Shown here one piece after another: positions 28,147-45,222 of a stretch of DNA of 64,000 nucleotides. A program made the translations under genes and the position numbers. Position 1 is the first letter of the stretch. Every line of letters starts with the position of its first letter. Origin of the DNA: an uncultured Litoreibacter sp. Its GTDB lineage: Bacteria; Pseudomonadota; Alphaproteobacteria; Rhodobacterales; Rhodobacteraceae. Under the pieces are notes generated by a model that was not told the DNA's origin, made no database searches, and was given only the letters and a program-made list of their open reading frames with translations. The stretch spans positions 682,001-746,000 of the forward strand of contig CANLQL010000001.1 in assembly GCA_947493265.1 (NCBI GenBank). Reading direction: 5' to 3'.

Positions 28147-28244
28147 GAAATTTCCCCACAAAATGTCAAAAATTAGAAAGTCGTTGATTCAGTCTTAGTC
28201 GCACCTCCAGAAACCCTTTCGGAACACTATTGCCCAAGTTCTTG

Positions 28245-28259
28245 TTAAGATTTCGTTAA
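28245..28259. promoter_or_regulatory. CtrA-type box TTAA-N7-TTAA
   Basis: Exact TTAA-GATTTCG-TTAA followed by C, in the 372-nt gap between the divergent nrdJ and GST genes. It is 98 nt from the nrdJ start and 259 nt from the GST start, so nrdJ is the more likely target. The rest of the gap is very AT-rich with no further gene. Confidence 0.5.
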
Positions 28260-28518
28260 CGGGAATTTAACTTTTTCATGTAGCTTTTTTGATGCTTCTA
28301 TTTCGGAGTAGATTATATAATTGGTGTAGTTTTTTAGAGTTTTCTTCGAACATGTCGTAGCATTTCCATTTCCAAATCTGACGGTTGATTTACTCAGGTT
28401 GAATTTGCACATCGGAACAAATTTAGTCTTTGTTGAAAGATAGCAAGAACTTAGATTTAGTAAGTTTTAAGAGAAATTCCTTAGCTCGATTGGCAATATC
28501 ACAATCAAGGATTTCCGT

Positions 28519-29166: not shown

Positions 29167-31242
29167 ATGAAGATGCGAAAAGCCGACATTGATTCGAATT
29201 CTGCAATTGCCGTTCGGGATCCAGGAGCAGAGCTGAAACGCAATCTCGATGAAAGGTTTAAATTTGCGAGGCACTTAGAAACACCGATTTGGATATACGA
29301 CGTTGACCTAAAAAAAATCGTCTTTGCGAACCAAACCGCTTGCAGACTTTGGCAGGCGGTAGATGAAACAGAACTCTATTCTCGCGACCTTGGCATTGGT
29401 ATGTCCACGACCGTTTCGCAAAGGTTAAAGCAATACCAAAGTGATTTTGTCGAAAAGGGCGCAAAGTTCCGAGAAGCTTGGACGCTATACCCCGAAGGAC
29501 AGCCAATCAGCACTATGGTAAATTACTCAGGGGTCAGACTATATGACTCCCGAATGGCTATGCAATGTGAGGTTGTTGGAGAGACAGTAAGTGTTCCAGA
29601 AAACGTCAGAAGTACCGAGGCACTCCTACACACAGACGTTATGATAAGTCTTTACGAGAATGACGGCGCTCCAATCTACATGAATCCAGCCGCTAGAAAA
29701 AAAATTAACTCTACTGATCAACGACTGAAAGAAAAATTTGTTGATCAAATCGATTTTTCAAGACTTCAGACGAACCTAAATTCTTCGGGTGAACATCGTA
29801 TGATCTCAAAAATGATCACTGATTCAGGAACGCGATGGCATGACATCTCCGTCAAAAGTTGTTTGGATTCTGTAACTGGTAAGCCTGCATTATTGGTTAC
29901 AGAAATAGATGTGAGCGAACTAAAAAACGCACGAGACAAGGCAAGATATCTTGCTGATAGCGATCAACTAACCGGCTGTTTCAATCGGCTTTACCTTCAG
30001 CAGCACATGTCGATGCTGGCAAACATTCAATCCGAGCGATGTGCTCTATTATGCTTTGACGTCGATCGATTTAAGCAAATCAATGATTGTTTCGGTCACG
30101 AAGTTGGTGACACAGTACTTAAGGAAATTGCATCTAGGGTTCGTAACGCAACAAGAAGGAATGATGTAGTCGTTCGCCTTGGAGGGGATGAGTTTGTCGT
30201 AGTTTTTGACGACATTCAGGACGACCGTGTTTTCGCTGAAACTGCTGAACGACTCCTGGAAATAATTTCGGAGCCAATTTTACACGACAAAACTCGAATT
30301 AGCGCGTCGGTGAGTATAGGGGTAACAATATTCAACCCCCGAAAAGCGGATTTCACCGAGTTGATGAGAGAAGCTGATGTCGCACTATACGTTTCCAAAA
30401 ATGAAGGTAGGAACCGTGTCACATTCTTTAACGAAAAGATGGGTGCAGACGCAAAAGCTCGAGATGCAATTGAACTTGAGCTTAAGGATTCAGTTTTAAA
30501 CAGCGAATTCGAAATCTACTATCAACCAAGACTTGATCTTAAGGTCGGCAAAGCTCTGTCTGCAGAAGCGTTGGTTCGTTGGAATCATCCAAAAAGAGGG
30601 ATCGTTTCACCCGCCGAGTTTATCCCGATTTGTGAAGAAACTGGTTTAATCGAGGAACTTGGTCGAATGATTGTTAAGAAAGCGTGCGATCAAGCGATCA
30701 AGTGGAGGCAAGAAGGTATAGATCTCGATATTTCGGTAAATATATCACCCCGACAGTTCGATGATCCACTCTTGATGGGGCTTCTGGAGGACATTTCACA
30801 GAAGACAGACTTTCCAAGCAAAAGAATTGAGCTCGAAATTACTGAAAGTGCGCTCATAGGAAGTCATGAAGTAATCGAAGAAAAACTAAAGATCATTGCA
30901 AAGATGGGATTTCGAATTGCGATCGATGATTTCGGTACCGGCTATTCAAACTTGTCATACATATCCAATTTTCCGCTTGATTGTTTGAAGATTGACCAGT
31001 CTTTCATTGCACAGTTGCCGGCTTCAGGACCAATCGTTGGATTGATCTTAACCTTAGCTGGGCAAATCGGCGCTTCAGTGGTAGCTGAAGGAGTCGAAGA
31101 CGCTGATCAGTTGGTTTGGCTGATAGAAAACGGTTGCGATCAAATTCAAGGGTACATGGTCTCAAGACCGATTCCAGCAGAAGAATTTGAGAAATTGATA
31201 GTGTCAGATTCTTATTCTATCAGCAAATTTTTTGACCAATAG
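29167..31242 (+). CDS. Cytoplasmic sensor GGDEF-EAL protein (c-di-GMP turnover)
   Basis: A 691-aa protein without transmembrane segments. Residues about 35-125 form a PAS-like sensor (TPIWIYDVDLKKIVFANQTA, EAWTLYPEGQPISTM) homologous to that of the kinase at 23720, then a PAS-like segment, GGDEF at 339-343 (RLGGDEFVVVF) with an RxxD inhibitory site RRND five residues before it, and an EAL domain with Glu467-Ala-Leu, NISPRQF, ELEITES, DDFGTGYSNL and EGVED. Both catalytic motifs are intact, so it can in principle make and degrade c-di-GMP. Roseobacter CtrA/quorum-sensing regulons include such enzymes, which fits the nearby CtrA boxes and luxI. Confidence 0.94.
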   Translation: MKMRKADIDSNSAIAVRDPGAELKRNLDERFKFARHLETPIWIYDVDLKKIVFANQTACRLWQAVDETELYSRDLGIGMSTTVSQRLKQYQSDFVEKGAKFREAWTLYPEGQPISTMVNYSGVRLYDSRMAMQCEVVGETVSVPENVRSTEALLHTDVMISLYENDGAPIYMNPAARKKINSTDQRLKEKFVDQIDFSRLQTNLNSSGEHRMISKMITDSGTRWHDISVKSCLDSVTGKPALLVTEIDVSELKNARDKARYLADSDQLTGCFNRLYLQQHMSMLANIQSERCALLCFDVDRFKQINDCFGHEVGDTVLKEIASRVRNATRRNDVVVRLGGDEFVVVFDDIQDDRVFAETAERLLEIISEPILHDKTRISASVSIGVTIFNPRKADFTELMREADVALYVSKNEGRNRVTFFNEKMGADAKARDAIELELKDSVLNSEFEIYYQPRLDLKVGKALSAEALVRWNHPKRGIVSPAEFIPICEETGLIEELGRMIVKKACDQAIKWRQEGIDLDISVNISPRQFDDPLLMGLLEDISQKTDFPSKRIELEITESALIGSHEVIEEKLKIIAKMGFRIAIDDFGTGYSNLSYISNFPLDCLKIDQSFIAQLPASGPIVGLILTLAGQIGASVVAEGVEDADQLVWLIENGCDQIQGYMVSRPIPAEEFEKLIVSDSYSISKFFDQ

Positions 31243-31485: not shown

Positions 31486-31668
31486 CTAACCTTTGACGTC
31501 CTTGATCTCAGCTAGAGCATCTTTCTCTTCCAAGATCTTCTCTCCTGAACCATCAGCCCAAACTCGGTGTGCTTTTGCTAAACTATCTACGAGTTCAGGC
31601 ATTTGGTTCCTTTCTGCGAAAGCCTTTAGATCCAAAATAACATCTGAAATCCAGTCAGCGCTTTTCAT
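31486..31668 (-). CDS. Small helical protein, family I (Asp-Trp type)
   Basis: A 60-aa acidic protein of no known family. It aligns without gaps to the small protein at 43167: Asp5-Trp6, Asp9, Asp13-Leu14, Ala16, aromatic 17, Asn21, Pro24, Leu26, Arg35 and Trp37 are identical or alike, and more loosely to the one at 39717. The 23 residues after Trp37 are unique. TTAGGAATGTAAC provides a ribosome site. The TTAA motif upstream has the wrong spacing (N8), so this is the one member lacking a clear CtrA-type box. Predicted two short helices; possibly an adaptor or anti-factor, which is speculation. Confidence 0.7.
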   Translation of the reverse strand: MKSADWISDVILDLKAFAERNQMPELVDSLAKAHRVWADGSGEKILEEKDALAEIKDVKG

Positions 31669-33209: not shown

Positions 33210-33243
33210 CAGGAATGATTAACTCTTACTGTTGCGAGGAGGA

Positions 33244-33873
33244 ATGTTAGCGAAAGGCACCAAGATGCTGCAGATGCATACTCTCAGGACACTGAACGAA
33301 AATCCAAAGTTAAGGGACCAAATGTATAACGATAGACGGAGGCAGTTCGCCGATAGGTTGAAGTGGTCGGTTTCAATAGACGATAAACAGCGTGAAATTG
33401 ACCAATACGACAATCGCTCAGCATTTTACCTGATCTGTACTGACAGAGATGGAAATCACCAAGGGTCAATGAGAATGAGCTCAACCAACGAGAACTTTAT
33501 GATCGGTGATCATTTCGGAGGCGATTTTCCCGATATGGTTCTACGAGCGGCAAGTGTTTGGGAAGTGACACGGTTTTGTGTTTCCCCAGAATTGCCAAAC
33601 TTCGCCCAGCTAGAGATTGGAAAAGTGGTTCTCAGGGGTGTCAGTCATTTTGCCCTGGCGGAGGGAATCAAGGAGTTTGTTGGCCTCTGTTATCCTCCGC
33701 TTCTTCGGATCTACCGGTCGGCGGGGTGTCGACCCGATCACATCCGAGAGGGCATCAAAGATGCGTCACTATTGCTTGTCAGGTGGCAAGTCTGCGCAAA
33801 AAAATTATCCACATTGTACGGTTCATGTTCCGATTTAGGAAAAACCAATCCAACCGAAAAAGTTGCAGCCTAA
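33244..33873 (+). CDS. luxI: LuxI-family acyl-homoserine lactone synthase
   Basis: A 209-aa autoinducer synthase. Counting from ATG 33244, the conserved LuxI residues are present: Arg-rich RRRQF (31-35) with Phe35, Trp41, Asp53 and Asp56 in REIDQYDN, Arg in GSMRM, Glu and Arg in SVWEVTRFCV, and a GNAT-like core (ALAEGIKEFVGLCYPPLLRI). It should make an acyl-HSL from SAM and acyl-ACP. GAGGAGG lies only two bases before this ATG; the Met codons at 33265 and 33274 are possible starts. No luxR receptor gene is adjacent, so it is an orphan synthase. It sits between small-protein genes in the CtrA-box-rich island. Confidence 0.88.
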   Translation: MLAKGTKMLQMHTLRTLNENPKLRDQMYNDRRRQFADRLKWSVSIDDKQREIDQYDNRSAFYLICTDRDGNHQGSMRMSSTNENFMIGDHFGGDFPDMVLRAASVWEVTRFCVSPELPNFAQLEIGKVVLRGVSHFALAEGIKEFVGLCYPPLLRIYRSAGCRPDHIREGIKDASLLLVRWQVCAKKLSTLYGSCSDLGKTNPTEKVAA

Positions 33874-34248: not shown

Positions 34249-36012
34249 CTATAAAAGGAGCAAAAGCACTAACGGTAGTAGAATTGCAAACCCTCCAGCC
34301 CCAGCTCCACCGTCAGCGGGCATTCCTTCGTCGTCCCAATCGTCATCATCGTCAACCTCTTCACACCCATATTCCTCGTCAGGTGGAACATCTGGAATGT
34401 CAGATAAGCTGGGGTCATTTATTGCATCTTCGACAAATGCTTCGATTGCGCTCGAGTTGTCACCATGCCACCCAGAGATTTCCTCCGTTCCTTCTTCGGT
34501 TCTGGCAAAGGTTAATCTAATAATTTGACCTGGTTGGGTAAATGTTAGATCAATTCCGTTTTCTTCGACATCGGGAGCAAAGTCTTCTCGCGAAGCAACC
34601 GAAAAAGTCTCAGCTTCGTTTAGCTGGTCAACGTCATTTGATGTCGGAATGTTAAAAATCGTTTTCCAATCAGATGGCACATCGGCTGACAAGCGCTCCC
34701 CCCAAACTTCAAGTGTTGTCCCCAATCCATCTAGCGGTACATGGAGGCTATACTCGGAACCTTCAAAATCCGGTGCAGATAGGAAAATCACAAGCTTGTC
34801 GTTACTGTCGAATCCAAATGCTGTGGTGGTCGCGGTTCCGCTATCGTCGAAATTATTACTCTTAAACCAATCTAGAACACGGGTGCCTTCCAATGACTCC
34901 GCCATCATGTCTTGCAGCGCTCCACCAACAAACAAGTAGTCTGAGTCATCGGACCCTTCAAAACTATGGCGACCTGCGTGCACAGAGTCCCACCCGTATG
35001 TCGTCATAGCTTCAGTTCCAATTGCTTGATATTCACTGAATAGCTGAAGCAACGTTTCGGCCTGCTCTAAGCCATAAGCTCGCTCGCCAAGCTGATCCTG
35101 ATAGTATTGTTCAAATTCAGCATTTGACCTTCCGTTTAAATCAAGGGATTCCAAGGTTACGGAAGGATCATCGCTGTTTTCGTTGAGATATGACTGCGCC
35201 GCCTCCCCTCTGGTTAAGCTTGCAGCATTATATTCCGACAGGAATAGGCCGGCTGCCTCACCTCCCAACGCTTCGATTGCATCGCCGAATTCAGATAATT
35301 CTTCCTGAACAAGGTCAGTTTTTGATCCTGCTCCGTCGGCAGTGAACGGAAACCTATGGTGAGACAACAAATCAGTAACTAACAGTGAATCGTCTGAAAG
35401 CGAATTTAGTAACGCGTCGTTGCCTTCTGATGTTCTTCCCAATTGAATGCTGTATTCAACCTTTTCAGGGTCTATCGTAAATTCGCTTTCTATCGCCGAA
35501 ATGAGTTTGGAATATTCATTTACAACAGATGCGTAGGCCTCCGCCTGGTTTGCCTCGGTTTCCCCATCGAAGGCAGAATAGAACTCATTGCCAAGTTCAA
35601 TAATCAAACTATCGGGTAACTCACCAAAAACCCCTGAAAACAGGTTTTCAAAAAATGGTCGCGCTTCCGCAGCTAGGGAAGCTGGATCAGACTGATACTT
35701 TGCGGTAGGAAGTGTAATAGCAACAGTGACACTGTTCTCAACTGCGAATTCAAACAGTTTGTCGATGGTGAGTTTGCCAGGTGCTTCGGCAGGATCAAAT
35801 AACCCTTGATGCTCGTATCCATATCTGCCGTCATTAAGTTCTGCTAGATATCCACCTGGCCAATGAATTAGACCGAGGTCTATCTCACCAGTTTGATTCT
35901 CAAACCTGTCAAAATTTCTGAAGCCTGTGTATTTAGCGCCGAAACTTTCTGCAGAAATCTCGACGGAACAACCCACGGGTCCATCAGCTATGAAGTCTGA
36001 ATTTGTAACCAT
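34249..36012 (-). CDS. Acidic glycoside-hydrolase-like protein with hydrophobic C-terminal tail
   Basis: A 587-aa acidic protein. The first 380 residues look like a (beta/alpha)8 clan GH-A enzyme: GLIHWPGGYLAE, LIIELGNEFYSAFDGE with an Asn-Glu acid/base pair on strand 4, LLSHHRFPF, and LFLSEYNAASL with a Glu on strand 7. A beta domain follows. The C-terminus is a poly-acidic linker (EVDDDDDWDDEG), then GGAGAGGFAILLPLVLLLLL at the very end without trailing basic residues. No N-terminal signal peptide is visible (MVTNSDFIADGPVGCS). The tail resembles sorting or tail-anchor signals, not any named one I can assign. GH51/GH39/GH79-like families are the nearest by pattern. Substrate unknown. Confidence 0.62.
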   Translation of the reverse strand: MVTNSDFIADGPVGCSVEISAESFGAKYTGFRNFDRFENQTGEIDLGLIHWPGGYLAELNDGRYGYEHQGLFDPAEAPGKLTIDKLFEFAVENSVTVAITLPTAKYQSDPASLAAEARPFFENLFSGVFGELPDSLIIELGNEFYSAFDGETEANQAEAYASVVNEYSKLISAIESEFTIDPEKVEYSIQLGRTSEGNDALLNSLSDDSLLVTDLLSHHRFPFTADGAGSKTDLVQEELSEFGDAIEALGGEAAGLFLSEYNAASLTRGEAAQSYLNENSDDPSVTLESLDLNGRSNAEFEQYYQDQLGERAYGLEQAETLLQLFSEYQAIGTEAMTTYGWDSVHAGRHSFEGSDDSDYLFVGGALQDMMAESLEGTRVLDWFKSNNFDDSGTATTTAFGFDSNDKLVIFLSAPDFEGSEYSLHVPLDGLGTTLEVWGERLSADVPSDWKTIFNIPTSNDVDQLNEAETFSVASREDFAPDVEENGIDLTFTQPGQIIRLTFARTEEGTEEISGWHGDNSSAIEAFVEDAINDPSLSDIPDVPPDEEYGCEEVDDDDDWDDEGMPADGGAGAGGFAILLPLVLLLLL

Positions 36013-36563: not shown

Positions 36564-36713
36564 CTATTGCATGCGGAGTTTTTTTATTTGTTGTTCGGAT
36601 CTTAGCGGCTCGAGAATTGCAACAAGAGCTCTATAAGTGTTTTCGAACCCATCCCGATTCGCGCGATCTGCGGCCAATTTGGTGGTTGTAAGAAGATCTT
36701 CCGTATTGGTCAT
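36564..36713 (-). CDS. Small helical protein, family II (Gly-Phe type)
   Basis: A 49-aa protein (MTNTEDLLTTTKLAADRANR, then DGFENTYRALVAIL). It aligns with the small proteins at 39432, 39887 and 43402 with a one-residue offset: Leu7, Ala18, Gly22-Phe23, Asn25-Thr26 and Leu30 fall on the family's fixed positions. The sequence 3' of it codes nothing else. An exact CtrA-type box lies 43 nt upstream, the same spacing as for the members at 39432 and 39887. No strong ribosome site is visible. Unknown function; likely two helices joined by the Gly-Phe turn. Confidence 0.62.
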   Translation of the reverse strand: MTNTEDLLTTTKLAADRANRDGFENTYRALVAILEPLRSEQQIKKLRMQ

Positions 36714-36756
36714 AGAGTCGCCCAGAATGCTGAGATTAACTTATTACACAGTATCC

Positions 36757-36771
36757 TTAAGAGAATGTTAA
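36757..36771 (-). promoter_or_regulatory. CtrA-type box TTAA-N7-TTAA
   Basis: Exact TTAA-GAGAATG-TTAA, 43 nt upstream of the family II small gene at 36713. On the plus strand a 50-codon frame begins at 36797, with a weaker case. The rest of the gap to 37137 shows one further near-match (36980-36994) and no gene. Confidence 0.5.
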
Positions 36772-37137
36772 TTCCAAATATCTAAACAGGCAAAGCATGC
36801 GACATCCCATAGGGATGCTCGAAAAACCGTTGAAAAAACTAGGGTTTCGGTCGATACGTCTCAAAAGGGTATCTGCTTTGAACTATGGGGTTTCGAGTCA
36901 GCATTTGTTGAAGCATGCAGAATTTACAGATCGTGCTGGCTCAGTTTGAGTTCCTGACATTGAACAAACAATGAAAAATTTAACTATTTGATAACTGAGG
37001 ATGCTATCTCTTTTCATCGACCTTCTTTGTTACGAGATTCCAAAGGGAGCCTCCCGAGAATTGAATTTGAATTCTTGCGTTGAGGAAATGGACCGATGAA
37101 CTCAGTAAGCCTGTTGCACTACTTGCTGGCTAGCAAA

Positions 37138-37680
37138 TTAGAATCGCGTTGCCACCGAAAGGTTAAGTGCGCCAAAGGCGTCATCGCCTGGGAGGACTGA
37201 AAAGCGATACTCTACGTTGTCTGCCCTTACTGAAAGGGTAGCTGCGGCCAATGGAATAAATCCGCCCATGTTTGGGATGCTATATTCAAGCTTGAGGTGG
37301 GGCGCGAGTTTGCCATAAAAACCGGTTCCGAAACTAATCCCACCTCTGACTTCTAGGGAGCCGGTTTCAAAAAGCGTTTGAGAGAGGCCCCACATGATGA
37401 TAGGCGAGGCTTCTTCATAGCTATTGTAGAAAATTCCGCCCTCAAGATGGTACTCTCGACCGAGCGAGTCCAATATCCATCTGGTTCCTACTAATATCCC
37501 GGGATTGAAGTCATTCAGTTCCGCATCGAAATGAACAGATCCTAAAACTACAGTCAGATAGCCCTCCCGATCTCCTGCGCTGGCTTGCCCAACTGTTAAT
37601 GCAAGTATGGAAGTTAGAGGTATAGTCCTAAATAACCTTTCCCAAAAGTTGAGGCGCATACTTTTGAATTCAAATGACAT
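37138..37680 (-). CDS. Outer-membrane beta-barrel-like protein
   Basis: About 180 aa from the Met at 37680, with a signal sequence (RTIPLTSILALTVGQASAGD) and then alternating amphipathic strands: YLTVVLGSVHF, GILVGTRWILDSL, YHLEGGIFYN, SLEVRGGISFGTGFYG, HLKLEYSIP and a final LNLSVATRF ending in Phe, the outer-membrane insertion signal. About eight strands would fit a small barrel. It is reminiscent of PagP or lipid-A-modifying barrels, but no catalytic residues can be assigned. The start is uncertain; a Met at 37659 leaves a better signal peptide. Confidence 0.6.
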   Translation of the reverse strand: MSFEFKSMRLNFWERLFRTIPLTSILALTVGQASAGDREGYLTVVLGSVHFDAELNDFNPGILVGTRWILDSLGREYHLEGGIFYNSYEEASPIIMWGLSQTLFETGSLEVRGGISFGTGFYGKLAPHLKLEYSIPNMGGFIPLAAATLSVRADNVEYRFSVLPGDDAFGALNLSVATRF

Positions 37681-37960
37681 TTCGGTGAAATCCTGGCTTG
37701 CGAAGAAGTTTTTTTTGTATGACACAGTCTCATAGAAAGCCTTGAAGAAGTATTACGCTCAGCGTGAAAGCTTGAGTATTTAAAACTTTGCAATTGAAAT
37801 TGTTTTTTCCCATCGTCTTTTTGAACAAGTCAGCTATTTTCGTTTCCATCGAGTACGGGCGCGCTGGTCAATTTCTAAGCCAAAGTCGAATTCTTTAACT
37901 CGACTTGCGCGGCATGTTGATATCGGTGGTGGGGCCAGCAATTTACCACGCACGCCGGAT

Positions 37961-38101
37961 ATGGACCATCCACTGGTTTTCTACACGCTTGTTTACCGTG
38001 ACTACTTGGTTGTCTTCGGTATAATGGCGAATGCGCGCGAGATTGACTGGTTCAAGTTTGGTCTACATAGCCGTCACCCTTACAGTAGAGCAGGTAATTG
38101 A
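37961..38101 (+). other. Unassigned open frame (47 codons)
   Basis: The frame stays open upstream to about 37785 and reads protein-like segments such as TRLARHVDIGGGASNLPR, LVFYTLVYRDYLVVFGIM and NAREIDWFKFGLHSRHP with GC-rich codons unlike its surroundings. No start with a ribosome site is seen before ATG 37961. Its stop overlaps the TTG start of the next gene, which suggests either translational coupling or a truncated gene remnant. Not recognised. Confidence 0.35.
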
Positions 38102-38367
38102 AACACAGCGTACCAAAGAAACGAAACCCATATCAGATGCGGCAGCGGGCGCTCGAAGAAGGATGGAAGACGGTTGAAACTATTCCCGCGCCTAGCGACG
38201 GTGAGTTTTTGGTTTTAACCATGTCAGGCCTAGTCAGGCGCGCTCGTCAAATTAGAAAACACCCCCGCATACGACCAGCCGATGGCTATGGCCCACAAAG
38301 AGTTGCTGTCGTCAGTTTAGATACCGGAAACTACTTGGCTGCAATTGCTTGGAGATGGATCGAATAA
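38098..38367 (+). CDS. Hypothetical small basic protein
   Basis: An 89-aa protein (TTG start; ATG at 38137 is the alternative, giving 76 aa). It reads GWKTVETIPAPSDGEFLVLT, MSGLVRRARQIRKHP and ends LAAIAWRWIE. The W-x-x-x-x-x-IP...GEFLVLT pattern resembles small phage- or plasmid-borne proteins of unknown role. GC-rich codon use and an overlap with the previous frame suggest a transferred fragment. Confidence 0.45.
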   Translation: MKHSVPKKRNPYQMRQRALEEGWKTVETIPAPSDGEFLVLTMSGLVRRARQIRKHPRIRPADGYGPQRVAVVSLDTGNYLAAIAWRWIE

Positions 38368-38730
38368 ATTGCCTGTTATCTGGAACTATCCCGTATGAAC
38401 TTGTGATCGGCGATACCCACATGTTAAACCTAAATCTACGCAGAAAAGTAGACTTGGTTTTTGGATCTCAATCTCACTCTCACACTAGGAACTACGAAAT
38501 TTGTTAATGTCGGGGTTTTGATTTCCCCTAACAAATTATCTGAAGATACGCTCAGGTCAACTTGGTCTGCGGTTGCCCTCTTTGGACAGCTATACGGACA
38601 GAATTGTTGGTGCCACGGACATTCGTCTTACTAGGCTGTGAAGCGAATGCACCGCTTACAGATATCCGGCGTTTTTCTAGAGTGCCTTTGGTATACACTG
38701 TTGTACTTTCGAACTTACCTATCCTGCTAG
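38368..38730. other. Gene-free stretch
   Basis: No gene, box or strong hairpin was recognised. It ends at the left terminus of the decayed IS element. Confidence 0.4.
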
Positions 38731-39175
38731 TGACCCAGCCTCCTGAAATCAGGTCACTGAGGTGTTAGTAATCCGTTCAAACAAAGGATGGACAATGAAA
38801 CGCAGATTTAGTGACGAACAGATCATTGGAATGATTAAGGAATATGAGGCGGGTGTGAAAGCGCAGGAGCTGTGCTGGAAGTACGGATCAGCGATGCGGC
38901 GTTTTATAAAAACAAAGCCAAGTTTGGCTGTATGAACGTGTCGGACGCGAAGAAGCTGCGGGTGCTTGAAGACGAGAACAATCGTCTGAAGCGCATGCTG
39001 GCGGACGCTATGCTTGATAATGCTGCGCTGAAGGATCTCGCGACGAAAAATTACAGACGCCTGATGCGAAGCGTAGAGCTGTGTCGGATCTGATGGACTG
39101 GCATGGACTGTCTGAACGTCGGGCGTGTGAATTGGCGGACCTTATGCTTGGTTCGTTCGATGTCGTTTACAGCTT
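38731..39175 (+). mobile_element. Decayed IS3-family element
   Basis: The left end TGACCCAGCCTCCTGAAAT resembles the terminus of the intact element at 44044. OrfA starts at 38795 (MKRRFSDEQIIGMIKEYEAG) and shifts frame near codon 31 through loss of one base relative to the intact copy (GGATCAGC against GGTGTGAGC). The rest of OrfA continues in the other frame (NVSDAKKLRVLEDENNRLKR), followed by the OrfB N-terminus (KRRAVSDLMDWHGLSERRAC), which breaks off around 39170. No right end is visible. Clearly inactive. Confidence 0.8.
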
Positions 39176-39373
39176 GCGATTTAGTAGACAAAAGAACGAG
39201 ACAAATTTTCAAAGCGCGGATCTGTCACGCTTAAAGAATCGCAAATCCGTCAATGTGAAAGCTCAACAAGTAAGCAGTAGTTGAAGGAATAAGTAAGTTG
39301 ACGAGAATTCTCGTTGCGTTAACTTTCTTTCTTAATTCCACTGATCCGTTTAGCCTACGCGCTATTGTATCTG

Positions 39374-39388
39374 TTAACTCTTTGTTAA
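39374..39388 (+). promoter_or_regulatory. CtrA-type box TTAA-N7-TTAA
   Basis: Exact TTAA-CTCTTTG-TTAA followed by C, 43 nt before the ATG at 39432. Confidence 0.55.
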
Positions 39389-39431
39389 CAAAATATCTCC
39401 AAAACAGTTTAGGTTAAGACTGGGAAATAGT

Positions 39432-39602
39432 ATGTTTGTTAATGAGTTAAGTGAAACCGCCATTGAGGCGGCTTCAAGGGCAGAAGCTTGTGGTTTCAGT
39501 GAAACCGCTAAGGCCTTTCTGGAGATTGCAAAGAGCCTTACGGCAGAACTAGAAGAAACAAGTTGGCCTCAAGAAAAACAAACCAGTTCCGCAACGGAAT
39601 AG
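39432..39602 (+). CDS. Small helical protein, family II (Gly-Phe type)
   Basis: A 56-aa protein (MFVNELSETAIEAASRAEAC, then GFSETAKAFLEIAKSLTAEL). Leu6, Ala13, Ala17, Gly21-Phe22, Glu24-Thr25 and the hydrophobic residue at 29 coincide with the proteins at 39887 and 43402 without gaps, and it has the same length as the 39887 protein. The C-terminal 15 residues are polar and variable. CTGGGAAATAGT precedes the ATG. An exact CtrA-type box lies upstream. Two predicted amphipathic helices with a Gly-Phe hinge; function unknown. Confidence 0.72.
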   Translation: MFVNELSETAIEAASRAEACGFSETAKAFLEIAKSLTAELEETSWPQEKQTSSATE

Positions 39603-39630
39603 AATTGTTTCTGTTTTCAAAACAGCATTT

Positions 39631-39645
39631 TTAACCTTTCGTTAA
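39631..39645 (+). promoter_or_regulatory. CtrA-type box TTAA-N7-TTAA
   Basis: Exact TTAA-CCTTTCG-TTAA followed by CG, 71 nt before the ATG at 39717. Confidence 0.55.
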
Positions 39646-39716
39646 CGTCGTCCGGCAACTCTCAATCCAGAGAGAAGCCATCGTTAGCTAGGCTGAAATT
39701 GTATGTTAGGGGCAGA

Positions 39717-39875
39717 ATGGAAAATATTAATTTCCTAGAGCAGACGCTGGATGAACTTCAAGCGTACGCCAATCAAGCGAACAATCACTCACTTAAGAAG
39801 CAAATAGAGAGAACACGTCAGGCATACGAAAATGAGTTGGCATCAAGGCGAGAGGCTAGCTCGGCTTCAAACTAA
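39717..39875 (+). CDS. Small helical protein, family I
   Basis: A 52-aa protein (MENINFLEQTLDELQAYANQ, then NNHSLKKQIERTRQAYENEL). In the gap-free register of family I it keeps an aromatic at 6, Leu14, Ala16, Tyr17, Leu26, Ile30, Ala36 and an aromatic at 37. AGGGGCAGA gives a good ribosome site. An exact CtrA-type box is upstream. It runs tail-to-tail into the family II gene at 39887, so members of both families are paired here. Confidence 0.7.
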   Translation: MENINFLEQTLDELQAYANQANNHSLKKQIERTRQAYENELASRREASSASN

Positions 39876-39886
39876 CCAATAGGAAC

Positions 39887-40057
39887 TCAACCCAATGCTA
39901 GGTGACGCTCTTCTTCTGTACTGCCTGCGCAACCAAGGTTGTCATTCTTTAGCTCTGAAAGAAGTATCCGAAGTGATTTGGCAGTTTCAATGAACCCCTC
40001 AGCTTCAGCGGTCAGAATTGCTTGGTTGGTACGCACAATCAAATCATCCTTAGTCAT
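39887..40057 (-). CDS. Small helical protein, family II (Gly-Phe type)
   Basis: A 56-aa protein from the ATG at 40057, which has GTGGAGG seven bases upstream; a longer start at 40096 lacks such a site. Sequence MTKDDLIVRTNQAILTAEAE then GFIETAKSLRILLSELKNDN. Leu6, Ala13, Ala17, Gly21-Phe22, Glu24-Thr25, Ala26-Lys27 and Leu29 match the protein at 39432 position by position. The CtrA-type box lies 42 nt upstream. Confidence 0.74.
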   Translation of the reverse strand: MTKDDLIVRTNQAILTAEAEGFIETAKSLRILLSELKNDNLGCAGSTEEERHLALG

Positions 40058-40099
40058 TTCAGCCTCCACGCTATCTATGATGAGGCTGCGCTTCATTAA

Positions 40100-40114
40100 T
40101 TAAGAGACTCTTAA
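40100..40114 (-). promoter_or_regulatory. CtrA-type box TTAA-N7-TTAA
   Basis: Exact TTAA-GAGACTC-TTAA, nearly palindromic as a whole, 42 nt upstream of the ATG at 40057. Confidence 0.55.
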
Positions 40115-40283
40115 CGTGCTAACGACTTCATGAACCATGGGCCAATTCTCGCCTATCGTTGAACGCACGTGATTGGTACAGATTTTTGGGATTGAGAGAC
40201 TTGGTTGCGCCGACAAATAGCGTAATCGAAGGGTGTGGGGATAAAGAGCCGACGCAACCTTCCACGAAATTGGACAATAATAG

Positions 40284-40298
40284 TTAACGAGGAGTTAA
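40284..40298. promoter_or_regulatory. CtrA-type box without assigned gene
   Basis: Exact TTAA-CGAGGAG-TTAA. The only nearby frame is 40309-40491 (plus, TTG start, 60 codons, basic, with QFRLLAKQFIQMHATFLKVA), which has no good ribosome site, so I do not call it. The surrounding gap 40115-40536 holds no supported gene. Confidence 0.42.
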
Positions 40299-40536
40299 AA
40301 TACTGAACTTGTTAAGGAAATTCGTTGCTGCGGAACATCGGCGTTGCAAAAAAGCGACAGTCTTGATTTGGGAAAATTCGAATGCTCAATTGGTAGAATG
40401 TGACCAGTTTCGATTGCTAGCGAAGCAATTCATTCAGATGCATGCGACCTTCCTAAAGGTGGCGAGCCGTTCAAGAAGTAAATTTTCTTAGTACGTTAAT
40501 ATTTCGGTATTTTTTTGATCGCAACCGGGCTGAACT

Positions 40537-40965
40537 CTAGCAATTTGCACTAGGTGAACCATGGCATTTAGCTGCTCGGACTATCGCTTCGCTCAGAACA
40601 CCAGGCGTGAGACCAGATTTCAAGAGAAACGAAGAGCAACCGTTTCGTAGCGCCATGTTTTTAACATCTGGCGTATCGTTACCTGTGATCATGATTGAAC
40701 TCAGCTTGGAATTTTCCTTGCAAGATACAATTATTTGTTGAGCTTCGATTCCAGTCCCATCAGGGAGGTCATAGTCCAATATTGCCACGCTAAACTCTTC
40801 ATAAATTAAGATCCCCTCTAGCTTCGCTAAGAGATCAATTTCCACTATTTCACATTTTAAGTGCGCCGATTGGATCATCCGTTTCAGCCTCGACCTATCA
40901 AAGGTACTATCGTCCAAAACTAGGATCCTCATTGGGAAGGAACATTCGGTTGAAATATTGTCCAC
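40537..40965 (-). CDS. Stand-alone response regulator receiver domain
   Basis: A 142-aa single receiver domain: RILVLDDSTFDRSRLKRMIQ with the acidic pair, phospho-acceptor Asp in VAILDYDLPDGTGI, Thr-type switch in SSIMITGND and Lys in FLLKSGLTPG. There is no output domain, as in ChpT/CckA-type relays or CheY-like adaptors. The GTG at 40965 has AGAGG upstream; an ATG at 40932 is an alternative. A one-mismatch CtrA-type box is 47 nt upstream, placing it with the small-protein genes. Confidence 0.88.
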   Translation of the reverse strand: MDNISTECSFPMRILVLDDSTFDRSRLKRMIQSAHLKCEIVEIDLLAKLEGILIYEEFSVAILDYDLPDGTGIEAQQIIVSCKENSKLSSIMITGNDTPDVKNMALRNGCSSFLLKSGLTPGVLSEAIVRAAKCHGSPSANC

Positions 40966-41012
40966 GGACGAGCCTCTCTATTCATCTCTATTAACAAAGA
41001 GTGCTTGAAAAA

Positions 41013-41027
41013 TTAGCGGACGGTTAA
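41013..41027 (-). promoter_or_regulatory. CtrA-like box with one mismatch
   Basis: TTAG-CGGACGG-TTAA, one mismatch, 47 nt upstream of the receiver-domain gene. Confidence 0.4.
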
Positions 41028-41242
41028 TCTGATTTTCTGAAGAAATTAGAACTTTAGTAACAATGCAAAGAGTCTAGTCATCTTGGACTACGGGAACTTA
41101 AGTGGATGCCTTTTTTTTGCTGATCGGGTCTCCGGTCTGGGTTCACGAAAAGGGCTAGCTCCATATTTCGGTAGGTGTCCAATTCGTTGCTATTTTGAAA
41201 CTAGCTCAGAATATGCGACCATACGGTCAAAGGGAGAAATCA

Positions 41243-41884
41243 ATGGCGCGACCTAAGGAACACGAAGGCAACGATATCGTCATATCTTTTGACATGAAAC
41301 GGTGCATTCTCGTCCGAAACTGCTTCCTGAAATTACCAGATGTCTTTGATCCTGCACAGCGTCCGTGAGTAAATCCCGTCACTGCCCCAGCCGAGGAAAT
41401 CGCTTCAGTGGTTCGCAGTTGCCCTTCTGGAGCTCTCGGTTTCCGATACAAGAACGGGGCACCAGAGAATCCTCCGAAGATCAATCGTATTGCCGTGTTG
41501 GAAAATGGCCCGCTTGCAATCACTGGTAATGTATCGTGCGAGGGCGAGAAAAACATGACACGATTGACGCAGTGCCGGTGTGGATTGTCCAAAAACAAAC
41601 CCTATTGCGACTCCTCTCATGTGAAAGGCGAGTTTGCCGCAACGGGGGAACCAAAGCCCCAAGCACCTGAATCTATCGACGGACAGGGTGGAGCTTTTTC
41701 AATCCAGCGTTTCGCAAATGGGCCATTGAAAATTGCAGAAAATGTTGAGATCACAACAGGAACCGGAAGTAGTATCGCAAAACATGACAGAGTTTTTCTT
41801 TGTCGTTGCGGTGCATCTGAAAACAAGCCGTATTGTGATGGAAGTCACCGCGCAACCGGTTTCAAAGATCCTCACGAAGATTGA
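41243..41884 (+). pseudogene. Fer4_19/double-CDGSH iron-sulfur protein with an in-frame TGA
   Basis: The frame from ATG 41243 (AAGGGAGAAATCA upstream) spans 213 codons. The N-terminal part is a divergent 4Fe-4S mono-cluster domain (SFDMKRCILVRNCFLKLPDV, later RSCPSGALGF), followed by two CDGSH motifs, CRCGLSKNKPYCDSSH and CRCGASENKPYCDGSH, each with the Cys3His ligand set (the first has DSSH for DGSH). Codon 42 (41366-41368) is TGA, reading FDPAQRP-stop-VNPVTAPA. As I recall, relatives have RPWVNP here, so TGG has become TGA. All else is intact, implying a recent nonsense mutation, or readthrough. Downstream restart would keep only the CDGSH part. Confidence 0.82.
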
Positions 41885-41929
41885 ATCTTACAGAGTTCAA
41901 TCACCGTCATTCTATTGTACTTATTTTGG

Positions 41930-42061
41930 CTAATTTGGACAGCCTACGCGGTCCGTCTGCGAACTCCATTCAAGATATTCATCGAAAAAGGCTGCTGCTG
42001 ATTGAATATCCACTAAGAAGAACGCGTAGTCTTGTCCAATCAGTATAGGGGCAGAATGCAT
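41930..42061 (-). other. Unassigned open frame (43 codons)
   Basis: Reads MHSAPILIGQDYAFFLVDIQ, then SAAAFFDEYLEWSS. In the adjacent frame just upstream (about 42047-42140) GFGNQMDEMIHYFNRKFGAE is read, so the pair looks like one gene broken by a frameshift. Not recognised. It is the only content of the gap 41885-42209. Confidence 0.35.
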
Positions 42062-42209
42062 TCCGCGCCGAACTTGCGGTTAAAGTAGTGGATCATCTCA
42101 TCCATTTGATTGCCAAAGCCACGCTCTCGCACTCAGACCTTTAACTGTCATACATTTCTTTTGCATCGCACATCGCTTAGATAGGCATCGCATCTTGAGG
42201 AGGCTCGTT

Positions 42210-42611
42210 GTGACTGAGATTTTGGCAACTTTTGCATGGTTTGTGATACTGTCTGTGAGCGCCCACGCGCAATCGGAATTAGAAGCTCCGCTGTGCGAAG
42301 CAGCCAGAGCGGGCCGCGTGGTGGAGATGGTTTATGACAAAGATGTCAGCAAAGGCTGCTCGCCGCGCCTTGTTGACGTACATCAGGTAGCAATTGGCAA
42401 TAATGGCAAGCTCTATATGCATGGCTGGCAAAGTCGCGGCTGTACGAAGGGCCGCGACTATGAGGCTAGGCGAACTTTTCGGCTCGACAAGATCAAGACC
42501 GTAATTCTGATTAAAGGCTCTTTCGGTGCTAGATCCCAATCCGCAAAAGACGATGGGTGGGACGGGTGCCTCGGCTCCAACTGTTTCATAAGAGAAACTA
42601 TTTGCAAATAG
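42210..42611 (+). CDS. Exported WYL-like domain protein
   Basis: A 133-aa protein. The GTG at 42210 has GAGGAGG six bases upstream and opens a signal peptide (VTEILATFAWFVILSVSAHA, cleaved before QSELEA). The mature part resembles a WYL fold: CEAARAGRVVEMVYDKD, RLVDVHQVAIGNNGKLYMHG, RRTFRLDKIKTV. WYL domains are normally cytoplasmic ligand sensors in regulators, so an exported one is unusual. Four or more Cys in the mature part (CEAA, KGCS, GCTK, DGCLGSNC) suit a disulfide-bonded periplasmic protein. Confidence 0.62.
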   Translation: MTEILATFAWFVILSVSAHAQSELEAPLCEAARAGRVVEMVYDKDVSKGCSPRLVDVHQVAIGNNGKLYMHGWQSRGCTKGRDYEARRTFRLDKIKTVILIKGSFGARSQSAKDDGWDGCLGSNCFIRETICK

Positions 42612-43166
42612 CTGGCTTCTCAGTGTTTGCGGTTCCACCATCTGATATCTCGCAAGCTGCCATCCCAGATGTCCTCGCAAAATTACGACTTCGTAAAGTT
42701 TGATTCAGATTAACCAAATCCTCAGACAACCCAGCGCAAATTGTATTTCTTAAATCGGAAATCCAACTAGCGGAGATGTCTGTGCGTTTTGAACTTCTAG
42801 TTTCTCTTGTTTCGGGCGTTTTGCGTCCATCGGTTGTCGCATTGATCCTAAGCGTTTCGACAGCTTTTTTTAGTTTTGACAATTCCGGTGTGCGTAGGCA
42901 CGAGAAAATCATCAACTTCGGAGCGCTGGGTTGCCACGGAATTTTTCACCCAATCTGTCGATTGTCATTCCGCTAGCCTCACTATCAACCTTAATTTCCG
43001 ACAATGAAACCGGACAGAGTCAGCAATGCCCATTTGGACAATTTGCCGACGCTCGAGCCATCGCCGGTCCGTAAGTTCCTGTGCTATAAAACGGATCCAC
43101 TTCTGGCACTGTCTACGACACTACAAAATTGTCTAATTTAGATCCGGAAGGTCGAGCCTAGCCTCG
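42612..43166. other. Gene-free stretch
   Basis: A minus-strand frame at 42598-42915 and a plus-strand frame at 42776-42976 overlap each other and neither has a ribosome site or recognisable content. No box or strong hairpin was found. Confidence 0.4.
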
Positions 43167-43313
43167 CTAACCTTTAGCTTGGTTCTCTTCTTGATCTTTG
43201 TTCCAAGCTCTATCCAGGTGAATTATTTCTGCCTTCAAATTGGGGGGGCTATTTTTTCTTTCATAAGCTTCCAAATCTCTTCTCAAGTCGAAGAGCCAGT
43301 CATTTACTTGCAT
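43167..43313 (-). CDS. Small helical protein, family I (Asp-Trp type)
   Basis: A 48-aa acidic protein (MQVNDWLFDLRRDLEAYERK, then NSPPNLKAEIIHLDRAWNKD). It matches the protein at 31486 at Asp5-Trp6, Asp9, Asp13-Leu14, Ala16, aromatic 17, Asn21, Pro24, Leu26, Arg35 and Trp37 with no gap, although the genes are 12 kb apart. The ribosome site is weak. An exact CtrA-type box is 60 nt upstream. Function unknown. Confidence 0.65.
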   Translation of the reverse strand: MQVNDWLFDLRRDLEAYERKNSPPNLKAEIIHLDRAWNKDQEENQAKG

Positions 43314-43373
43314 TTAACGAATGTCCCGAAAATCTTTCCTTGCAATATTAGGTGATATTGCGATGGAAATTCA

Positions 43374-43388
43374 TTAATTCAAGGTTAA
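43374..43388 (-). promoter_or_regulatory. CtrA-type box TTAA-N7-TTAA
   Basis: Exact TTAA-TTCAAGG-TTAA followed by C, 60 nt upstream of the family I small gene at 43313 and just downstream of the family II gene at 43402. Confidence 0.5.
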
Positions 43389-43401
43389 CATCAGTTCAGA
43401 A

Positions 43402-43587
43402 TTAAGCAGTTTCTCTGCGAAAAAGCTTAGAATCGCGTTCAATGCCAACAGTAGATGAGTTCACATCTAGATCATTGCGGAGTTGCGCGGCGATATTAGA
43501 GAGTGCTTCGTAAGTGTTTATAAAGCCTTCGCTTTTTGCGCGTTCTGCAGCCACGATTGTTCTTTGAACTAGTCTATTCGTTTCCAT
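43402..43587 (-). CDS. Small helical protein, family II (Gly-Phe type)
   Basis: A 61-aa protein (METNRLVQRTIVAAERAKSE, then GFINTYEALSNIAAQLRNDL). Leu6, Ala13, Ala17, Gly21-Phe22, Asn24-Thr25 and Leu29 lie on the family positions. GGGGATTCGAAA gives a good ribosome site. An exact CtrA-type box is 55 nt upstream. A basic tail (FRRETA) distinguishes it from the acidic-tailed members. Confidence 0.72.
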   Translation of the reverse strand: METNRLVQRTIVAAERAKSEGFINTYEALSNIAAQLRNDLDVNSSTVGIERDSKLFRRETA

Positions 43588-43642: not shown

Positions 43643-43657
43643 TTAACGGAGTCTTAA
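43643..43657 (-). promoter_or_regulatory. CtrA-type box TTAA-N7-TTAA
   Basis: Exact TTAA-CGGAGTC-TTAA followed by CG, 55 nt upstream of the small gene at 43587. The rest of the gap to the IS at 44044 holds no supported gene; a GC-rich stretch near 43870-43920 (GCAACGAATGGC...) is loosely like the dispersed element at 14074. Confidence 0.52.
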
Positions 43658-44104: not shown

Positions 44105-44374
44105 ATGATGAAGAGAAGCCGTTTCAGCGAAGAGCAGATTATCGGGATATTGAAAGAGCATCAGGCTGGGCTTGGCGCGAAAGAGCTGTGTCGCAAGCAC
44201 GGTGTGAGCGATGCGACGTTTTACAAATGGCGATCCAAGTATGGCGGGATGGAAGTGTCGGATGCGAAGAAGCTGAAGGCGCTTGAGGCCGAGAATGCCA
44301 AGCTAAAGAAGCTGCTGGCCGAACAGATGATGGATGTGTCGACGCTTAAAGAGATGCTGGGAAAAAACTTTTGA
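44105..44374 (+). CDS. IS3-family transposase OrfA
   Basis: An 89-aa DNA-binding OrfA: helix-turn-helix ([40 protein letters not shown]) and a leucine-zipper region ([20 protein letters not shown]). It ends KNF with an A-rich AAAAAAC tract at the overlap with orfB, where programmed -1 frameshifting would create the OrfAB transposase. ACGAGGAGAC precedes the ATG. Confidence 0.95.
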
Positions 44375-45222
44375 AGCCCGGTTCAAGGCGACGTGCTGTG
44401 GACTGGGCCATGAAAGAGAAACGCTACAATCAGAAGCGCGCCTGCGCGTTGGCTGGGATCGATCCGCGTGTTTATCGCCGGACATCCAAGCGAGCAGCAG
44501 ATACTGATCTGCGGGATCGGTTGAAAGATCTGTCGTCTGAGCGGCGACGCTTCGGATATCGCCGCCTGCATATCCTGCTTAAGCGTGAGGGGTGGCAGGT
44601 CAATTGGAAGAAGCTGTACCGGATCTACCGCGAAGAAGGGTTAACTGTTCGTAAACGCGGCGGACGCAAGCGAGCTGTGGGTACGAGAACACCCATGGCA
44701 ATCCCAAAGGGGCCGAACCAGCGGTGGTCGCTGGACTTCGTGTCTGACAGCTTGTCGTGTGGTCGCCGGTTCCGCATTCTCAACGTGATCGACGATTTCA
44801 GTCGCGAATGCTTGGCGGCGGTTGTTGATACGTCGCTATCTGGTGACCGTGTCGCCAGAGAACTGGATCGTATTGCCGAGATGCGTGGCTATCCTTGCAT
44901 GGTAGTCAGCGACATTGGGACCGAACTGACTTCAAACGCGATCCTGAAGTGGCAAGAAGACCGTGAGGTTGACTGGCACTACATCGCTCCCGGCAAGCCC
45001 ATGCAAAATGGATTTGTCGAAAGCTTCAACGGGCGCATGCGCGACGAATGCCTGAATGAGCACCTGTTCGATAGCCTGCGCCATGCTCGCATTCTGATCG
45101 CGGCCTGGCGCAACGACTTCAACCACAACCGGCCTCATTCCAGCCTCGCTGGCCTGACGCCACATGAATATGCTAACCGGTCACAAGAAGACCAAAACCT
45201 GAACAGAGCTAACCTAAATTAG
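44371..45222 (+). CDS. IS3-family transposase OrfB (DDE integrase)
   Basis: A 283-aa catalytic subunit. N-terminal HTH_21 region ([18 protein letters not shown]), then the rve core: first Asp in RWSLDFVSD, second Asp in [11 protein letters not shown] and Glu in [19 protein letters not shown]. The usual Asn after the second Asp is replaced by Ile. The frame opens at TTG overlapping the orfA stop and is normally expressed as a frameshift fusion. Confidence 0.94.

Follow-up and report, generated by a model that had tools for sequence, protein, structure and literature searches.

The question raised by the 64,000-nucleotide (nt) stretch of an uncultured Litoreibacter sp. analysed here (G000:C1:682001-746000, in the following the window) is whether four tiny open reading frames (ORFs) encode real proteins, and what role these could play. 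A preliminary description had grouped the four ORFs as a new family of small Gly-Phe proteins, here called family II, and had suggested that they serve neighbouring signalling proteins. Based on the analysis described below, the four genes are probably overlooked small regulators linking CtrA and quorum sensing.

Family II is a real protein family

All four ORFs were found in the window where the preliminary description had placed them. In the following list, E (expectation value) refers to the retrieval of each protein by a profile built from the other three.

36564-36713, minus strand: family II protein of 49 amino acids (aa), by translation; E 4.6e-9
39432-39602, plus strand: family II protein of 56 aa, by translation; E 3.4e-7
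39887-40057, minus strand: family II protein of 56 aa from the inner ATG at 40057, convergent with the gene at 39717; E 8.6e-7
43402-43587, minus strand: family II protein of 61 aa, by translation; E 1.5e-13

For the gene at 39887 the inner ATG was chosen because the ATG of the longer ORF (40096) lies only 3 nt from a CtrA box, and because the inner start results in the common N-terminus of the family and leaves 42 nt to this box. In the alignment of the four proteins M1, L6, A13, A17, G21, F22, T25 and L36 are invariant, with the 36564 protein offset by one relative to the other three, which agrees with the fixed residues and the offset noted before. The leave-one-out profiles were searched against the 1,280 stop-to-stop ORFs of the window, where the best ORF outside the family showed an E of 1.5. 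Likewise, a profile of 28 members from other genomes retrieved the same four ORFs (E <= 9.1e-10; next E 2.5). The residues conserved most strongly across the 32 members are G21 (31/32), A13 and A17 (30/32 each), A28 (27/32) and T25 (26/32), followed by F22 (25/32) and R9 (22/32). A clear fifth member was not found in the own genome (3.52 megabases, 5 contigs), in which the remaining matches had E values of 0.5 and 1.0.

A comparison of nonsynonymous (dN) and synonymous (dS) substitutions according to Nei-Gojobori gave a dN below dS in 13/13 family II pairs, with a dN far below dS in close relatives. The determined dN/dS values were 0.06/0.38 for the two copies of genome G016, 0.21/2.15 and 0.38/1.66 for the copies of G448 and 0.40/1.34 for the copies of G007; dS was saturated in 4/13 pairs, and one very close pair (0.03/0.05) is little informative. 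The paralogue pairs of the window itself (0.82/2.79 and 0.73/1.22) weigh little for selection, because they are too diverged (dN 0.73-0.82). Family II is under purifying selection, as had been presumed earlier from the four window proteins, even if these add little to the result. The possibility of chance ORFs was rejected by the profile recovery, the dN below dS and the enrichment of CtrA boxes described below, and it is virtually certain that family II is a real coding protein family.

Profile searches also revealed homologues elsewhere. Clear members were found in two of 20 congeners (G007 and G016), in 7/295 genomes of the taxonomic family (E <= 0.005) and in 15/390 genomes of the order, comprising 13/139 genera (E <= 0.001), the own genome being counted in both cases; these genome sets, like the 195 genomes used for family I below, are samples from larger groups. 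While these whole-genome profiles did detect relatives, a scan of genome contigs with one family II peptide pattern gave no confirmed relative, probably owing to the strictness of this pattern. Altogether, the distribution of family II is real but sporadic.

CtrA boxes and the family II promoter

The consensus for CtrA binding is quoted as TTAA-N7-TTAAC in the available portion of PMC4046655. A perfect CtrA box (TTAA-N7-TTAA) was found 42-55 nt upstream of the ATG in 4/4 family II genes of the window. Two of the three window genes of a companion family, here called family I and described in the next section, also carry a perfect box, and all boxed genes of both families have it 42-71 nt before the ATG:

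36757-36771, minus strand: 43 nt before the ATG of family II gene 36564-36713
39374-39388, plus strand: 43 nt before the ATG of family II gene 39432
39631-39645, plus strand: 71 nt before the ATG of family I gene 39717
40100-40114, minus strand: 42 nt before the family II ATG at 40057
43374-43388, minus strand: 60 nt before the ATG of family I gene 43167-43313
43643-43657, minus strand: 55 nt before the ATG of family II gene 43402-43587

In total, the window contains 10 perfect boxes compared to 0.51 in shuffles, and 7/10 fall between 36.7 and 43.7 kilobases (kb), where 0.23 are expected by base composition. Since the whole genome holds 39 perfect boxes and thus fewer than the 70 counted for the reversed control pattern, this cluster does not reflect a genome-wide habit. 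The same boxes were found outside the window, where 28 family II members were collected by protein profile alone (E <= 1e-4; identical first 40 residues counted once; the four window members excluded). Within 90 nt, 17/28 showed a perfect box and 26/28 a box with at most one mismatch, compared to 3/567 and 14/567 for background ORFs (100 codons or longer, from these same regions, and for the greater part probably non-coding) and to 0.8% and 2.9% of 20,000 random 90-nt windows.

The leaders of 30 family II genes, including the four of the window, share a common layout. The box and the ATG are separated by 36-57 nt, an A follows 13 nt past the box in 27/30 leaders, and G is found at position -9 in 22/30 and at -10 in 19/30. 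The A can be read as that of the -10 element and the G at -9/-10 as the ribosome site, while the box is predicted to span about -38 to -24, over the -35 region, which is the usual position for activation. Both features looked for in a promoter of the CtrA regulon were found for family II, namely the box itself and its location at -35 together with a -10 element and a fitting leader distance. The genome encodes a ChpT-type phosphotransferase. Judged from boxes and spacing, control of family II by CtrA is very probable.

The seventh perfect box of the cluster (40284-40298) has no clear target; an ORF of 60 aa with a TTG start begins at 40309. Two overlapping perfect boxes (28245-28270) lie upstream of the gene for an adenosylcobalamin-dependent ribonucleotide reductase (26422-28161, minus strand).

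Family I as companion of family II

Family II is accompanied by the tiny proteins of family I, most of which show the pattern DW-[IL]-xx-VL-x-DL-xx-[FY]A. Three family I genes lie in the window:

31486-31668, minus strand: further family I protein of 60 aa; E 1.4e-8 with both the core and the cassette profile
39717-39875, plus strand: companion of 52 aa, middle gene of a II-I-II triad; cassette profile E 3.9e-6
43167-43313, minus strand: companion of 48 aa; cassette profile E 4.4e-5

The cassette profile, built from 18 family I members next to family II in other genomes, finds exactly these three window genes (next E 5.4). No CtrA box with up to one mismatch was found in the 110 nt before the gene 31486-31668. 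The triad II(+)-I(+)-II(-) formed by the window genes at 39432, 39717 and 39887 recurs in identical arrangement at two loci of G007 (L035, L036). Among the 19 genomes whose family II neighbourhoods were compared, 10 (G000, G007, G016, G093, G179, G355, G371, G372, G448 and G623) have a family I gene no more than 1 kb away from family II; of these, G371 and G372 share the same proteins here and are not independent. The description of the four members as dispersed is consequently half right: several copies stand in II-I or II-I-II arrangements, and their isolation had been overstated. A CheB-type methylesterase adjoins both convergent I/II pairs of G016 (L037, 11846-12418, minus strand, assigned by similarity; L038, 7588-8160, plus strand, assigned by Pfam).

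Family I in front of luxR and luxI

Contrary to family II, family I is widespread, with a gene in 20/20 congeners and in 135/195 genomes of the order (66/87 genera). The dN/dS of these core family I pairs ranged from 0.01/0.14 to 0.23/0.93. In the own genome the core gene (C4:292482-292691, minus strand) is followed by luxR (domain 292058-292480) and luxI (domain 291212-291640), with the crotonyl-CoA carboxylase/reductase gene ccr (TIGR01751, E 3.6e-185) upstream and a helicase-type ATPase downstream. Largely the same arrangement was observed when, out of 568 confirmed loci of family I, the best 80 were examined, a sample which for this reason leans to close relatives of the query. A luxR homologue lies at most 600 nt downstream of family I in 78/80 loci, luxI follows in 73/77 loci having at least 2.3 kb of downstream sequence, and ccr precedes in 74/76 loci having at least 1.2 kb of upstream sequence. 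In Aquicoccus porphyridii (L175), family I was found between ccr and the helicase, yet without luxR, luxI or a CtrA box there.

The core promoter comprises a CtrA box as well. In 73/80 loci a perfect box ends 18-22 nt before the ATG, while 2/80 show a box with one mismatch farther off and 5/80 show none. Since a conserved block resembling TG-N-TATAGT directly precedes the box, the box would overlie the transcription start, which is the usual position for blocking. A second conserved block (CCTC..TATTT..GGGGAG, then G-GAAT) was observed about 85 to 30 nt before the box, between ccr and family I (L127-L206), and is perhaps a LuxR operator or the ccr terminator.

This locus can be compared to luxR2I2 of Dinoroseobacter shibae. 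The promoter of luxR2I2 contains two perfect CtrA sites and its expression is lowered in ctrA, cckA and chpT mutants, as stated in the accessible part of PMC4046655, and CtrA sites at luxI2/R2 are also given in an excerpt of PMC6473078. The roseobacter "B topology" is described as ccr, luxR, luxI and helicase in the section of PMC3824088 at hand. The own core locus shares this gene order and the CtrA box, but in contrast to the topology as given in that section, ccr and luxR are separated here by family I. A figure of the same paper carries the label "conserved hypothetical protein". The CtrA boxes, the companion family I and its place before luxR-luxI had all been missed in the preliminary description, which therefore understated the regulatory context, although its statement that signalling genes lie nearby holds true, as shown below.

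Database and literature searches

In line with the earlier impression that no domain can be recognised, Pfam contains no family for II (4 window proteins and 12 further members), cassette family I (2) or core family I (20), and NCBIfam none for II (4), cassette I (2) or core I (20). PHROGs gave no family for 12 members of II, with nothing below E 0.016, and the sequence-profile searches of the PDB found no family. One family I and two family II queries gave no tblastn match in 72,556 plasmids. Three weak matches of single members were rejected: that of family II to rubrerythrin-like helices (E 0.017 and 0.021), which represents a local helix-turn likeness, that of family II to a function-less PHROG (one member, E 0.016), and that of core family I to YdgT, a small modulator (E 0.018). 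In the literature searched, which comprised openly licensed papers only, neither family was found to be described, so that this absence is weak evidence. As far as the searched libraries and openly licensed papers go, family II is undescribed.

Predicted fold of both families

The AlphaFold2 model of family II, calculated from an alignment of 4 sequences, shows helices at residues 3-20 and 23-43 with a predicted template modelling score (pTM) of 0.59. The mean predicted local distance difference test (pLDDT) by tens of residues was 92, 98, 98 and 88, followed by 49. For family I (alignment of 36) the model shows helices at 4-19 and 23-40, a third helix of low confidence, a pTM of 0.50 and mean pLDDT values of 84, 97, 96 and 91, then about 56. 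The two helices hinged at Gly-Phe that had been proposed earlier are thus reproduced, and according to the model family II is most likely a two-helix hairpin turning at Gly-Phe. The residues A13, A17, F22, A28 and L29 would fit a packed core, and R9 appears as the best candidate for a surface residue.

In both families the hairpin turn (residues 20-22) and the register agree. A comparison of I and II by hhalign gave a score of 16.2 compared to at most 14.4 in 200 column permutations, but a probability of 7.6%, or 1.9% with smaller alignments. Since the permutations are beaten while the probability is low, a common descent is suggested, not shown. Foldseek returned only hairpins for both families, none of them significant. 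These included, for family I, the two-helix hairpin dimer Rop/Rom of ColE1, to which there is no match at the level of sequence families. Rop binds RNA.

Genes around family II

Several signalling genes lie in the vicinity of family II in the window:

29167-31242, plus strand: PAS-GGDEF-EAL protein (PF00563 and PF00990), 5.3 kb from the nearest family II gene
33232-33873, plus strand: luxI, autoinducer synthase (PF00765, E 3.9e-21)
40537-40965, minus strand: single-domain receiver between the cassettes (PF00072, E 6e-11)

In addition, a hybrid kinase is located at 23723, and the receiver gene shows a CtrA box with one mismatch (41013-41027) 47 nt before its GTG. A luxR domain was not found on the contig of the window luxI. 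Among the 19 genomes, luxI lies within about 6 kb of family II in five (G000, G007, G016, G166 and G448) and GGDEF proteins in five others (G179, G362, G371, G372 and G402), both being raw counts for these neighbourhoods alone. In a Pfam scan of the GGDEF proteins of G179, G362, G371 and G402, three were assigned as GGDEF-EAL and one as CBS-GGDEF. Since four genomes, including G179, G254 and G402, have no luxI beside family II, the link to luxI is a tendency only.

Next to luxI, the window encodes a protein of 587 aa (34249-36012, minus strand) without Pfam match. A similar-looking RTX-repeat protein lies beside luxI in G016, and relatives were found near family II in G093, G166 and G475; the G016 protein does not match the window protein at E 1e-6.

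Proposed function and alternatives

While the regulation and the fold of family II are well supported computationally, its partner is something we infer. The reading we favour, and in which about half of our belief is placed, is that family II comprises hairpin proteins of the CtrA regulon which influence the quorum-sensing/CtrA circuit through protein-protein contact, with LuxR as the likeliest partner. The same even weight is given to the more general statement that family II proteins are modulators of quorum-sensing/CtrA signalling. According to this proposal, phosphorylated CtrA would bind the box at about -38 to -24 and switch the family II genes on with the rest of the regulon. The hairpins may then self-associate, or join those of family I, to form a small helical bundle, which could work by contact with the circuit, with LuxR-type receptors as the most likely target, in the manner of TraM or QslA in other systems. 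The gene sets of the window and of related genomes would represent diverged, mobile copies of a small regulator, by which the timing of the programme and the number of cells running it are tuned.

LuxR-type receptors are ranked first and contacts to kinases or the phosphorelay second, because family I precedes luxR in nearly all examined loci, and family II often travels with family I and sometimes with luxI. The antiactivators TraM, QslA and Aqs1 likewise act by protein contact with a LuxR-type receptor, according to the part of PMC13043044 considered here, and share the setting of a small protein beside luxR-luxI. In contrast to these, a lone hairpin of about 40 residues is predicted for families I and II, and neither family matches any TraM family of Pfam. 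Since both are without a Pfam match altogether, they may work like TraM-type proteins rather than be such proteins. By this analogy, a direct contact of the hairpins with LuxR is possible, though rather less likely than a role in the circuit as such. The small adaptors or anti-factors for signalling proteins put forward in the preliminary description are a plausible hypothesis.

A more far-reaching version would unite I and II as one hairpin superfamily forming a two-part regulator of the CtrA-quorum sensing circuit in Rhodobacterales. Family I would be the overlooked first gene of the luxR-luxI operon, restraining or tuning LuxR, and mobile, CtrA-switched II-I cassettes would rewire the circuit by competing for the same partner via I-II heterodimers, with the core box overlying the beginning of the luxRI operon. 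This version is doubtful.

A number of observations weigh against the favoured reading. The neighbourhood of luxR was demonstrated for family I, not for family II, luxI is found near family II in only 5/19 genomes, and in 9/19 genomes the 1 kb around family II contains no clear family I gene at the limits used (G184 with a weak candidate, E 0.04). The homology of I and II is not established at the hhalign probabilities given above. Among the 28 outside members, two are without a CtrA box even at one mismatch; they include paralogues and are hence not independent, and the 567 background ORFs are mostly probable non-genes. Furthermore, the steady residues of family II belong mostly to core and turn and are uninformative on the partner. 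Finally, the layout at core family I, with a box 18-22 nt from the ATG, is that expected for blocking, unlike the layout of family II, and the lowered luxR2I2 of the D. shibae ctrA mutant, given in the part of PMC4046655 cited above, is at odds with blocking. Either activation proceeds from a different site, or this reading of the layout is wrong.

The strongest of the alternatives takes the hairpins as antikinases or adaptors of the phosphorelay. Antikinases of the Sda type are tiny antiparallel two-helix hairpins. Similar to these, family II could bind receivers or the helical hairpin of a histidine kinase, for example CckA or the hybrid kinase nearby, and thereby tune the flow of phosphate to CtrA, in which case control by CtrA would create a feedback loop. 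The predicted hairpin fits this explanation, as do the hybrid kinase at 23723, the receiver at 40537 and the fold match to GanS, a histidine-kinase domain, which is not significant (E 2.4), but the fold is common to many unrelated proteins, family II stands in a different context than Sda and matches neither a Sda family nor any other in Pfam. Moreover, no kinase-like cluster was seen by eye among the neighbour clusters present in at least 3 genomes, and no link is as constant as the one between family I and luxR. An antikinase role is considered unlikely, if only slightly more so than the two-part regulator.

Less probable still is that the proteins are parts or chaperones of CtrA-controlled machinery such as flagella, Tad pili or competence, made together with those structures. 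In D. shibae the CtrA/quorum sensing network does drive flagella, Tad pilus and competence, as reported in the accessible portions of PMC4046655 and PMC6473078, and the top fold match of family I, although not significant, is a flagellar export chaperone (E 4.7). Contrary to this explanation, inspection by eye showed no such gene among the neighbour clusters of at least 3 genomes, and family I precedes luxR-luxI instead.

A similarly low probability is assigned to cargo of mobile islands without a regulatory role in the host, that is, selfish or immunity-type small proteins which use CtrA promoters for expression in a subpopulation. Family II does fit mobile islands, because transposase-like genes (9/19 genomes) and phage-type integrases (5/19) recur within about 6 kb, with two transposases and one integrase confirmed by Pfam, and its sporadic occurrence in 15/390 genomes points in the same direction. 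On the other hand, the companion family I occurs in 135/195 genomes and at a fixed place in the 80 loci examined, neither PHROGs (below E 0.016) nor plasmids gave a match, and family II is under purifying selection. In the window itself, remnants of an IS3-type transposase and a more complete element were observed by eye inside and beside the cassette (38762-39093 and 44105-45219); by sequence they cluster with similar ORFs of other genomes.

Proteolytic adaptors that deliver LuxR or CtrA regulators to ClpXP would also be small, helical proteins with CtrA boxes, but neither the sequence searches nor any significant fold match connects the family to known adaptors. This explanation is very improbable.

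Significance

What appears to be new are the undescribed small proteins themselves, while a common fold and a known regulator lie underneath. In this abundant marine order, motility, the gene transfer agents and the differences between individual cells are under the joint control of quorum sensing and the CtrA phosphorelay. The family I gene before luxR (78/80 loci) and its CtrA-boxed hairpin companions provide concrete candidate parts of the wiring between these two systems, which can be deleted in model strains.

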